Positions 48,201 through 52,306 of a stretch of DNA of 52,306 bases are shown piece by piece. The position numbers and the translations under genes are program-made. This DNA comes from Ignavibacteria bacterium RBG_16_34_14. GTDB taxonomy: Bacteria > Bacteroidota > Ignavibacteria > Ignavibacteriales > Ignavibacteriaceae. The notes below the pieces were generated by a model that did not search any database, was not told where the DNA came from, and worked only from the letters and a program-made list of their open reading frames with translations. The stretch's first letter is position 1. Each line of letters begins with the position of its first letter. The DNA lies in assembly GCA_001802865.1 (NCBI GenBank), contig MHAF01000085.1, forward strand, positions 1 through 52,306, given 5' to 3'.

Positions 48201-49292
48201 ATGAAACTAAATATCAATATCAGTTTAACAATGATCCAACTGCTATTATTATTTTTATTATTCGACAGCAGTAGTGTTTCTGCTCATTGCGATGGACTTG
48301 ATGGACCGGTCGTGAAGGCAGCTATAAAAGCAATTGAGACGGGTAATGTTAATTATGTGCTTATATGGGTTCAGAAAGCAGATGAAGAAATTATAAAGAG
48401 TGCTTTTAACAAAACTCTTATTGTCAGGAAACTGAGTAAAGATGCACAGGAACTTGCTGACATGTATTTCTTTGAAACCCTTGTTCGGATTCATCGTTCA
48501 GGTGAAGGCGAACCTTACACCGGTCTTAAACCTGCCGGAAGGGATCTTGGTCCCGCAATTCCCGCAGCAGACAGTTCGATTGATAGAAATTCTTTGAACC
48601 AACTTGAAAAAGTCCTTGCTGGCCAAATTCCAGATGAGATAAAAGACTTGTTTAATAATGCAGTTTCCAAAAAGGATTATAGTATTGATGATGTTGATGC
48701 TGGTAGAGAATATGTTAAAGCATATGTTCAGTTTATCCATTCAGTCGAAGTTTATTACGAAACCGGTGAATTACATCATGAAAGTCATACACATAAAACA
48801 GAAATAAATCAACACGAAACAACGAAACACGAAGGAGAAAAGGCAATGGAATTTAAAATTCCGGAATCAATGAAAATTGAGCATGAAAAACTTCATGCAA
48901 TTCTTGCTGAAGCAACTAAAGAAGAAGGGGAAATTGGTACGACTGCAAAAGAAGTTGCAAAAGTTTTGCATGGTCATTTTGTTAAAGAAGAAGAGATTGC
49001 AATTCCACCCCTTGGATTGCTCGCTGAAATTTCGAGAGGACATGTAACCGAGGATATGAGACCGGTTACAAAAATGACCGATAGGCTAAAAGCAGAATTA
49101 CCTCAAATGCTAGAAGAACATAAACAAATTGTTCGGGCACTCAATAAATTTGAAGAGGTTGCTAAAAAGATGAACAGAAAAGATTATGTAGATTTTGCAG
49201 AAGACCTTAAACTTCATGCTAAGAATGAAGAAGAAGTAACATATCCAACATCTATTTTAATCGGTGAATTCATAAAACTCAAATTAAAATAA
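48201..49292 (+). CDS. Exported DUF6448-type protein fused to a hemerythrin (HHE) domain
   Basis: A 363-residue exported protein. A signal peptide ends SVSA and the mature chain begins with HCDGLDGPVVKAA, the DUF6448-type opening; that domain runs to about residue 190 (GEGEPYTGLKPAGRDLGPAIP). A His/Lys-rich linker (about 191–213) leads to a hemerythrin-like four-helix domain with metal-ligand candidates EHEKLH, LHGHFVKEEE, EEHKQI and LHAKNEEE. Hemerythrin domains bind a di-iron centre and react with O2 or NO. GAAAGGAA precedes the ATG. A ribosome-binding-like GGAG stands 8 bases before an internal in-frame ATG at 48846, so a shorter, cytoplasmic hemerythrin product is possible. It probably starts the NO/O2-related gene set. 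GTGT-N9-ACAC at 48147–48163 may be an operator. Confidence 0.85.
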   Translation: MKLNINISLTMIQLLLLFLLFDSSSVSAHCDGLDGPVVKAAIKAIETGNVNYVLIWVQKADEEIIKSAFNKTLIVRKLSKDAQELADMYFFETLVRIHRSGEGEPYTGLKPAGRDLGPAIPAADSSIDRNSLNQLEKVLAGQIPDEIKDLFNNAVSKKDYSIDDVDAGREYVKAYVQFIHSVEVYYETGELHHESHTHKTEINQHETTKHEGEKAMEFKIPESMKIEHEKLHAILAEATKEEGEIGTTAKEVAKVLHGHFVKEEEIAIPPLGLLAEISRGHVTEDMRPVTKMTDRLKAELPQMLEEHKQIVRALNKFEEVAKKMNRKDYVDFAEDLKLHAKNEEEVTYPTSILIGEFIKLKLK

Positions 49293-49370: not shown

Positions 49371-49670
49371 ATGTTTATCAACACAATTGAATTTCCTTCG
49401 ATAAAAGTTGGGAAAGAATCCGATTTTCTTGAATGGTTTAATTGGTCGAACTCTGTTTATAAAAATTTTGATGGATTTATTTCACGGCGGTTATTAAAAC
49501 TCACAAAAGGAAGTAAAAACTACGTTACTTTAGTTGAACACGAAAGCGAAAAAACTTTTATGGCAATGCATACCAGCAAAGAACGTCAAGACGCTTTTAA
49601 CAAATTAAAACCTTTGTTAGACGGTTCACTTAATGCAAAATTTTATGAAGTAATTATTGACACGGTGTGA
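49371..49670 (+). CDS. ABM-type (antibiotic biosynthesis monooxygenase fold) protein
   Basis: A 99-residue protein of the dimeric α+β ABM fold (KVGKESDFLEWFNWSN, FDGFISRRLLKL and YVTLVEHESEKTFMAMH). Relatives include heme-degrading and quinol monooxygenases and many of unknown role. No conserved heme His pattern can be assigned by eye. GGGAG precedes the ATG. Its place before membrane oxidoreductase genes suggests a part in heme or radical chemistry, but this is inferred from context. Confidence 0.7.
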   Translation: MFINTIEFPSIKVGKESDFLEWFNWSNSVYKNFDGFISRRLLKLTKGSKNYVTLVEHESEKTFMAMHTSKERQDAFNKLKPLLDGSLNAKFYEVIIDTV

Positions 49671-49711
49671 GGGGTAAAATGTGTGTAAGTAAACCATAGT
49701 ATAAATTGCTT

Positions 49712-50170
49712 ATGTTTTCTACTGTAAGATATTTCATTAAGACCAGTATAATATTCCTTCTATTAGGAATAGTAACTGGTCTTTATTTGTTAATCGCACG
49801 ATACTATTTTGGTATTTGGCACCATCCTGATCTTATCTCTGCACACACCCACATCATTCTTGTCGGTTTTGTAATGATGATGATCATGGGCGTTGCACTA
49901 TGGTTTTTTCCACGACCCGAAAAAGATGATAAATTATATAATCCAGCTCTAATTCTAACAACTTACTATATCATCACTGTCTCGACGATTATTCGATTTA
50001 TTTCAGAAGTTGTTTCTTCTTGTTTAACTCCAACAGAAATACTAAAATTTATTCTTACAATATCAGCCATCGGTCAGGTTGTAGGTATTGTTCTATTTTT
50101 CATCTCAATGTGGGGAAGAATTAGATCTGTTGGTAGTCATATTCGAGAAGCAAAAGGAGAGAAATTCTAA
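49712..50170 (+). CDS. Four-helix heme-copper-oxidase-like small membrane protein
   Basis: A 152-residue membrane protein with four helices. SAHTHIILVGFVMMMIMGV (helix 2 area) has the HxH of the heme-copper oxidase subunit I heme-ligand helix, and ALWFFPRPEKD follows. Such short proteins are often called 'cbb3-type subunit I-like' and lie next to NO-reductase-like genes. It could carry heme or assist assembly. I chose ATG 49712; the frame opens at TTG 49706. No strong ribosome-binding site is seen. Confidence 0.7.
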   Translation: MFSTVRYFIKTSIIFLLLGIVTGLYLLIARYYFGIWHHPDLISAHTHIILVGFVMMMIMGVALWFFPRPEKDDKLYNPALILTTYYIITVSTIIRFISEVVSSCLTPTEILKFILTISAIGQVVGIVLFFISMWGRIRSVGSHIREAKGEKF

Positions 50171-50248: not shown

Positions 50249-50797
50249 ATGATTGATTCAAATATTGTCTTAATAGGACAGGCAATAGCTTATACACTAT
50301 ATGTTCTGATTATAATGATTCTTATTGGTTGGTTTGGTTATAATATAACACGCCAAGGCAAAAGTAATGTAATTAACCCTAAATTATTTTATTCTTTAGT
50401 TGCATTGTTAGTCCTAATTGGTGTATCTCTTCACATCGTTACTCACGAAACAATTCCATGGAAGTCGATGGATTTAAATAGAGCTTCAATTAAAGCGGAT
50501 AAAACTTTTTATATCAGCGTTGCTAATCACAAATTTAATTTACCTGCTGAAAAAATGATCATTAAAACAAACAATAAAGTCTTGTTCAACGTTACATCTG
50601 AAGACTTAACTTACGGATTTGGATTATTCCGGCAGGACAATTCAATGCTTTTCCAGATGCAGGTTTTACCCGGTCACAAGAATGATATTCTCTGGCAATT
50701 TGATAGACCGGGAATTTACTCTATTCGCTCAACAGAATATTCCGGACCAAAGGGAATTAAGATGATTGAAAAAAACGCTGTTATAGTAACCAATTAG
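50249..50797 (+). CDS. Subunit II-like cupredoxin membrane protein lacking CuA
   Basis: A 182-residue protein with two N-terminal membrane helices (about 12–32 and 47–64) and a C-terminal cupredoxin domain as in heme-copper oxidase subunit II. The CuA ligand loop (normally C-x3-C-x3-H-x2-M) reads Ser161, Ser165, Gly169 and Met172 (STEYSGPKGIKM), and the other His reads Tyr122 (TYGFG). The fold is kept but the dinuclear copper site is gone, as in quinol oxidase subunit II (CyoA). It probably pairs with the next gene's product. GGGTGAAAC precedes the ATG. Confidence 0.85.
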   Translation: MIDSNIVLIGQAIAYTLYVLIIMILIGWFGYNITRQGKSNVINPKLFYSLVALLVLIGVSLHIVTHETIPWKSMDLNRASIKADKTFYISVANHKFNLPAEKMIIKTNNKVLFNVTSEDLTYGFGLFRQDNSMLFQMQVLPGHKNDILWQFDRPGIYSIRSTEYSGPKGIKMIEKNAVIVTN

Positions 50798-50844: not shown

Positions 50845-51591
50845 ATGAATTTTTTACAAACACTAACCAACGGAGAAGAGGGGTTGTTCAAATCTGATAC
50901 CTTAACTCCTATGCAAAAAATGACTTTGAGGTTTGTTGTTGTTGGTTTGCTTTATTATGGCTTTGTCGTCGTTGAAGGTATGATAATGAGAACTTATCAG
51001 GTAACTCCTATTTCCCTGATCCCTCCAAATCAATATTTCGCAATACTAACCGCACATCCGCTTGTCGGAATTTTTGGTTCTACTTATTCAATTGTTTTTG
51101 GTGCTTTTCTTTTTCTCGTCCCTTTCTTAATGAAAAAACCATTGTGGAGCATTAAACTTGCAAACTGGACTTGTGGTTTAGTCGGAATTGGTACTTTTAC
51201 TTTTTGGTTTTCAGGATTCCTAACCCACTATGCTCCTCTTTATACTTTATACTGGCCGCTTCCTGCAGATTTCACACAGTTTAGTGTTTGGGGTGGAACA
51301 TTTTTTATATTCGGCATTGCTTTAGTTATGTTAGGAACCGTTTTCTTTGTTATAAATGTTTTTAAAACAATTACCTACACACCGGAGGACAGGGAAAAAC
51401 AACCAGCCAGTGCTTTGCTTTCTTCTGCACTTGGCATAAGCGGTCTCAAAAACCTTTTTAGAAAAAACAAACAAGAACATTTGGTTTCTTTGCCAGTTGC
51501 TGCTATTGCTCGCGGAACTGTTGATACGGCATTTAATGCTATAGTTATTCTTTTCACAGGGGTACTAATTCTGGTTTATATGATTGCATAA
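50845..51591 (+). CDS. Heme-copper oxidoreductase subunit I, N-terminal part, ended by in-frame TAA
   Basis: A 248-residue product covering helices I–V of a heme-copper oxidoreductase catalytic subunit. His71 in LTAHPLVGIFG (helix II) matches the low-spin heme ligand. The frame ends at TAA 51589–51591 after LVYMIA, but the very next codon continues the family sequence (LFGVSL …) in the same frame to the window edge. A one-base change GAA to TAA would explain it. It is either a nonsense mutation or base-call error, or a truly split protein. GGGTTTTAAA precedes the ATG. The likely reaction is NO or O2 reduction. Confidence 0.85.
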   Translation: MNFLQTLTNGEEGLFKSDTLTPMQKMTLRFVVVGLLYYGFVVVEGMIMRTYQVTPISLIPPNQYFAILTAHPLVGIFGSTYSIVFGAFLFLVPFLMKKPLWSIKLANWTCGLVGIGTFTFWFSGFLTHYAPLYTLYWPLPADFTQFSVWGGTFFIFGIALVMLGTVFFVINVFKTITYTPEDREKQPASALLSSALGISGLKNLFRKNKQEHLVSLPVAAIARGTVDTAFNAIVILFTGVLILVYMIA

Positions 51592-52306
51592 TTGTTCGGT
51601 GTAAGCTTAAGACATTCAGCAATTGATGCACTGCTTTATAAAAACTGGTTCTGGTGGGGATTAGATCTAATTGCTGATGGACTCGTACTGATCTTTGTAG
51701 CCGGAACATGGTACTTACTTGCAACTTTGATTACCGGTAAAAAACTATTTATGGAAAACTGGGCTCGGGCAGCTCTGTTTGTAGAGATGATTGTAAGCTG
51801 GACTGTATGGTCACACCACTTAATGTCCGATCAGGCACAACCTGGAATCTTAAAAATCTTATCTGGGGAAATGGTTACTGCTTTTGAGCTTATCACACAG
51901 GGACTTGCCTTCTTCATTACCTTAATTACACTCTGGAGCGCCAGACCAATTAAAATGACAAATCCGTTAAAGTTTTTATTAGGTGGTTTACTTGGTTTTG
52001 CTCTTGCTGTTCCGGCTGGTATTATGCAAGCTGATTTAGGTCTGAACAGAATTTTGCATAACACACAATGGATTGTCGGTCCTCACGTACATGTAGCAAT
52101 TTTAGTTGGATTGACCATGACCCTATATTCAGCAATCTATTATTTGCTTCCTATACTTACTAATGGTGCTAAACTCTATAGTCAGAAGCTTGCAAACTTT
52201 CATTTCTGGGCGCATCTTCTTGGTGGTATCGGTATGGGTGCCTTTATGGGAATGGCTGGTTTGAATGGAATGTTAAGAAGAACAATATATTTTGAAGGTG
52301 AGTTTA
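51592..52306 (+). CDS. Heme-copper oxidoreductase subunit I, C-terminal part (partial, cut by window)
   Basis: Same frame as the preceding gene after its TAA; open to the window end (238 codons). Numbering from TTG 51592: helix VI NWFWWGLDLIADG has Asp25 and Asp29, helix VII has His75-His76 (VWSHHLM), and helix X has His165 and His167 (GPHVHVA). Spacing (25→75→167) matches cNOR NorB (207→258→349), so Asp25 replaces the helix VI metal His and Asp29 the active-site Glu. A noncanonical NO-reductase-like enzyme is suggested. Translation could restart at TTG 51592, directly after the stop, but no ribosome-binding site is visible. Confidence 0.75.
   Translation, partial: MFGVSLRHSAIDALLYKNWFWWGLDLIADGLVLIFVAGTWYLLATLITGKKLFMENWARAALFVEMIVSWTVWSHHLMSDQAQPGILKILSGEMVTAFELITQGLAFFITLITLWSARPIKMTNPLKFLLGGLLGFALAVPAGIMQADLGLNRILHNTQWIVGPHVHVAILVGLTMTLYSAIYYLLPILTNGAKLYSQKLANFHFWAHLLGGIGMGAFMGMAGLNGMLRRTIYFEGEF

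Follow-up and report, generated by a model that had tools for sequence, protein, structure and literature searches.

The window analysed here is the whole 52,306-nucleotide stretch of contig C85 (MHAF01000085.1) of Ignavibacteria bacterium RBG_16_34_14. It closes with the gene for subunit I of a heme-copper (HCO) superfamily enzyme, which is the last gene of the contig, and the end of the contig is also the end of the window. Residues 1–487 of the 540-residue protein are encoded at positions 50845–52306 of the forward strand, the strand on which all other features described below also lie. The reading frame opens with the ATG at 50845; the TTG at 51592 is not its start. The final 53 residues lie on a second contig, C14 (locus L147), which was found with the family profile and opens with the C-terminal residues of the protein. 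The two contigs share an overlap of 33 exact bases (window positions 52274–52306, L147 bases 1–33), and since both belong to one genome we place C14 directly after the window. The stop codon ends at base 194 of L147, giving a complete reading of 540 codons. Relatives of subunit I are 532–545 aa long and have no internal stop.

The window gene itself is interrupted by an in-frame TAA at codon 249 (51589–51591), in the loop before helix VI. This single codon splits subunit I into two mechanical ORFs, but the COX1 profile (PF00115, 5.3e-54) crosses it unbroken. None of 84 relatives has a stop at this site, which is variable among them (Ala, Glu, His, Ser, Tyr or Asn) and holds a Glu codon in the three nearest. 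On either side of the TAA dN is low (about 0.04–0.11) and synonymous change is near saturation, indicating that the stop is either a very recent nonsense change or an assembly error. Two genuine half-genes divided at the TAA can be ruled out, as the 84 relatives carry one ORF and the TTG falls in a variable loop. An earlier, sequence-only reading of this DNA had started the gene at that TTG. It thereby covered only the C-terminal part, missing the N-terminal half (50845–51588), and it overlooked both the in-frame stop and the continuation of the gene beyond the contig end onto C14.

Subunit II, a membrane-anchored cupredoxin that matches ba3-type CuA domains in the PDB, is encoded at 50249–50797. 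Its gene lies immediately upstream of the subunit I gene in all 80 loci of the family that we compared, with a median gap of 36 bp. The CuA ligands are lost: in the 80-locus consensus both Cys are replaced by Ser and both His are replaced, with the Met kept. The consensus stretch YGFGLFR.DnsM.FQMQVvPGH is nearer to the corresponding part of sNOR subunit II (HGFGIYAPDGRIVTQVQAMPGY) than to CoxB.

Further upstream, the operon has variable neighbours. An Rrf2-family gene, nearly always encoding three cysteines, precedes subunit II in 45 of the 80 loci, and a CRP/FNR-type gene is nearby in 11. The Rrf2 proteins score far below the NsrR cut-off, and the IscR, SUF and RirA models match them equally well or better; control by NsrR, a NO-specific regulator, is therefore not established. 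In the window, the place of the Rrf2 gene is taken by three other genes. The nearest encodes a short COX1-like membrane protein of 154 aa (49706–50170; PF00115, 1.3e-07; DUF2871, 7e-04), found at the same place in about five loci. It is preceded by the gene for an ABM-like protein of 99 aa (49371–49670), whose homologue in locus L149 weakly matches PF03992 (0.0017); this is an optional neighbour, seen close to the operon in L149 and in two other loci. The third, likewise optional, encodes a fusion of DUF6448 with a hemerythrin HHE domain (48201–49292; PF20046, 2.1e-57; PF01814, 6.3e-08). DUF6448 genes also lie upstream of the operon in several relatives.

Active-site residues of subunit I

Of the six conserved heme and metal histidines of HCOs, subunit I keeps five. 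The helix II ligand of the low-spin heme is H71 (51055–51057), invariant in alignment A1 and across every superfamily row of alignment A2. H324 and H325 (51814–51819) are the metal ligands of helix VII, and helix X supplies H414 and H416 (52084–52092), which bind the high-spin and the low-spin heme, respectively. The sixth, the helix VI metal histidine, is Asp throughout the family: D274 (51664–51666) stands in its column. A second Asp, D278 (51676–51678), occupies the +4 site, where cNOR has Glu, sNOR has Asn and A- and B-type oxidases have Tyr. In the partial protein first considered, these residues had been numbered D25 and D29 (D274 and D278), H75–H76 (H324–H325) and H165 and H167 (H414 and H416). 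The proposal made there, that Asp replaces both the helix VI His and the residue at +4, is borne out by alignments A2 and A4. With this column aligned against A-type, cbb3 and cNOR sequences and against proteins with an H...N pattern (helix VI His, Asn at +4), no helix VI His falls at the metal site. MAFFT placed a gap at +4 in two of the H...N rows, which was settled by the ungapped rows of L138 and cNOR.

The same residues are strongly conserved. H71, H324, H325, H405, H414 and H416 are invariant over the superfamily rows of the alignment; together with D274 and D278 they are invariant in the 30 rows of A1 and conserved in 84 or more of 86 rows. The motif WWGLDL(I/V)ADG was read in 76 of 80 family loci; in the remaining four the script took the wrong frame and the motif was not read. 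A search of 395 genomes of the phylum with the DNA pattern for WWxxDxxxDG...HHL recovered the family in 11 genomes and an apparent chance match in one. Relatives are 76–91% identical to the window protein (72% for the lowest pair within the family), and the conservation of both Asp among them indicates that the pair reflects neither chance nor sequencing error; a chance D...D is ruled out by the motif reading across loci and by the pattern search. Separately, an invariant Glu, E348 (51886–51888), aligns across a two-residue gap with Glu280 of cNOR; this is only a lead, and from the alignment E348 is a possible shared carboxylate near the metal.

The sequence-only reading had also pointed to a ligand spacing that fits cNOR to within one residue. 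We checked the cNOR numbering on the sequence of PDB 3o0r_B (H207, E211, H258, H259, H347 and H349), and the arithmetic holds: the interval 207–258 is 51 residues in cNOR versus 50 for 274–324 in subunit I, and 259–347 is 88 versus 89 for 325–414. The distance from the helix VI His to the HH pair is, however, 49–50 residues in A-type, B-type, sNOR and cbb3 proteins as well. Because these groups share the spacing, it is generic to the superfamily and gives no pointer to cNOR, so membership of cNOR on this ground is ruled out.

Placement within the heme-copper superfamily

The COX1 profile match places subunit I in the HCO superfamily, and structure prediction agrees. For the L004 protein, which is 91% identical, AlphaFold2 gave a model (mean pLDDT 85) with the HCO fold, and Foldseek matched this model to cytochrome bo3 at 8.5e-17, the nearest structures being subunit I of bo3 and aa3 oxidases (TM about 0.77). 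Superfamily placement thus stands despite the lost helix VI His, because profile and fold still match.

Within the superfamily, the protein belongs to a separate branch. The closest sequences beyond the family are about 21–24% identical over the full length. In a mixture-model tree, the family forms its own clade (100/100) on a long branch, outside the A-type, cbb3, cNOR and sNOR sequences. The sNOR anchor in this tree was Ruegeria (Silicibacter) pomeroyi (L171), of a genus listed in the literature as a carrier, and B-type oxidases were represented by one row. The deeper attachment is compatible with several sister groups: an AU test does not reject grouping the family with sNOR (p 0.42), cNOR (p 0.24) or cbb3 (p 0.09). 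The sequence-only reading had staked itself on the absence of a helix VI His from the metal site and on a position outside the canonical O2-reducing families, and it survives on both counts, since the column holds Asp and the tree sets the protein apart from those clades.

The A-, B- and C-type O2 reductases share with the family the fold, the heme ligands and the HH pair of helix VII, but their third metal His (that of helix VI) and their cross-linked active-site Tyr are absent here, and in the tree, with its one B-type row, the family lies outside the A, B and C clades. The cNOR and qNOR enzymes (NorB; PDB 3o0r and 3ayf) have the same histidine core apart from the helix VI His and, like the family, a carboxylate at +4 (Asp here, Glu211 in cNOR). 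They differ in that cNOR keeps the helix VI His, so that its H207/E211 pair is D274/D278 in subunit I, and they form a separate clade in the free tree; moreover, the operon described here has no cytochrome c subunit.

Predicted function

Proposed NO reductases with altered metal ligands, the comparison that the sequence-only reading had put forward, proved to be the right one for this protein, and the published definitions point to gNOR. A passage in PMC3475470, citing Sievert 2008 on Sulfurimonas, describes NORs as carrying Glu, Gln, Asp or Asn in place of the Tyr, and certain types as having Asp for one of the metal histidines. The gNOR enzymes of Sulfurimonas, Sulfurovum and Persephonella have Asp at the Tyr/Glu site (PMC8756737, Table A4). 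They are the quinone-oxidising norGH enzymes (PMC8906906), and in sNOR, gNOR and eNOR alike the second subunit is a cupredoxin (PMC8756737). sNOR, gNOR and nNOR are proposed groups that have not been biochemically characterised (PMC11388526).

The family agrees with those parts of this description that a sequence can reveal. Invariant D278 is an Asp at the Tyr/Glu position. Invariant D274 is the replacement of a FeB/CuB His by Asp, a feature that we tie to gNOR by taking PMC3475470 and PMC8756737 jointly. The cupredoxin subunit II is present with its CuA lost, and the donor is predicted to be quinone. The likeness to gNOR (norGH; Sulfurimonas, Sulfurovum, Persephonella and Methylomirabilis) is thus one of published description only, comprising the Asp at +4, the metal His-to-Asp change and the cupredoxin subunit; a difference is that the carriers found here are mainly Bacteroidota and Ignavibacteria. 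Judged by those descriptions and not by reference sequences, membership of gNOR is likely.

The other named groups fit less well. The sNOR enzymes (norSY; Ruegeria/Silicibacter pomeroyi, L171, and Thermomicrobium, L172) are likewise two-subunit, B-family-like NOR candidates, with a similar subunit II sequence and a similar stretch after helix VII (HHL.xD.xQP). However, in sNOR the helix VI His is retained (H...N) and CuA is intact, whereas the family has D...D and no CuA; sNOR also forms a separate clade (100/100) at about 23% identity. eNOR is defined by Gln at the Tyr position, where the family has Asp.

Every published gNOR feature that is visible in sequence therefore occurs in the family, which we explain as a gNOR-like, quinol-dependent NO reductase. 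We put the probability that subunit I is the catalytic subunit of such a two-subunit enzyme at roughly 0.7. Electrons would come from quinol, not from cytochrome c via CuA, and would pass through the low-spin heme to the high-spin heme and the non-heme metal. This metal, most likely iron, would have two His and one or two Asp as its ligands, and two NO molecules would be coupled there to N2O. The enzyme may serve to detoxify NO or to carry out the NO step in partial denitrification; many carriers have a redox-type regulator beside the operon.

Several other readings were weighed. nNOR, like sNOR and gNOR, is counted among the relatives of the B family (PMC11388526), and the family described here is a tight clade on a long branch, as might be expected if it were nNOR or some other proposed NOR group of B-family descent, still NO-reducing; we consider this unlikely, since the two-Asp pattern fits the published gNOR descriptions (PMC8756737 and the passage in PMC3475470). 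It is improbable that we are dealing with a separate HCO family of Bacteroidota and Ignavibacteria beyond gNOR and nNOR, with two His and two Asp as metal ligands and a CuA-less, quinol-docking subunit II. The enzyme is probably a member of the already proposed gNOR kind and not a new kind of enzyme.

The +4 Tyr and one of the three metal His are both gone, a combined loss that, to our knowledge, no established O2 reductase tolerates, and without the cross-linked Tyr the family is unlikely to reduce O2 in a four-electron reaction. These losses, with the absence of CuA from subunit II, leave little room for an HCO that has an unusual site and reduces or scavenges O2, even though oxidases (cbb3, bo3/aa3) come first in sequence and fold searches of the PDB and an O2-reductase role has been proposed for sNOR (PMC6967387). 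A catalytically altered HCO (a sensor, or a metal- or heme-handling protein) or a pseudogene in this genome, as the in-frame TAA of the assembly and the nearby hemerythrin and ABM-like genes of the window might suggest, is very improbable given the strict conservation of the heme ligands and both Asp over 72–91% identity, the purifying selection on either side of the stop, the intact ORFs of relatives and the strict pairing with subunit II.

Distribution and significance

Among 294 genomes of the class, the family occurs in 15 besides that of the window, in some as fragments at contig edges. Members 80–90% identical are also found in MAGs labelled Patescibacteria, Spirochaetes, Acidobacteria, Chloroflexi and Gemmatimonadetes (L004–L083). 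The patchy spread and the multi-phylum MAG labels suggest gene transfer or misbinning. Searches of viral contigs yielded no D...D relatives, and those of plasmids none of full length. HCOs from halobacterial plasmids, examined as eNOR candidates, proved to be ordinary H...Y oxidases. The same class also holds H...N HCOs (L102, L134 and L138), which group with Ruegeria sNOR (100/100) and are sNOR-like enzymes.

Denitrification genes were surveyed in the same genomes. nosZ is present in 114 of the 294 genomes of the class, and its co-occurrence with the family is not significant (9 of 15 carriers versus 105 of 278 others, p 0.10); nor is that of nirK (3 of 15 versus 48 of 278, p 0.73). Neither gene was found in the incomplete assembly of the window's own genome. 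We have accordingly set co-occurrence aside as proof of function. Of 118 genomes sampled from the phylum, only 5 had a canonical NorB by motif.

With NorB rare and nosZ commoner, non-canonical HCOs such as the putative gNOR-like enzyme may fill the missing NO step in partial denitrifiers. Standard annotation names such enzymes cytochrome c oxidase subunit I. The interest of the family lies in a strictly conserved two-Asp centre, its function a prediction, in organisms where canonical NorB is rare, and such a site would test how few histidines a NO-reducing heme/non-heme centre requires.
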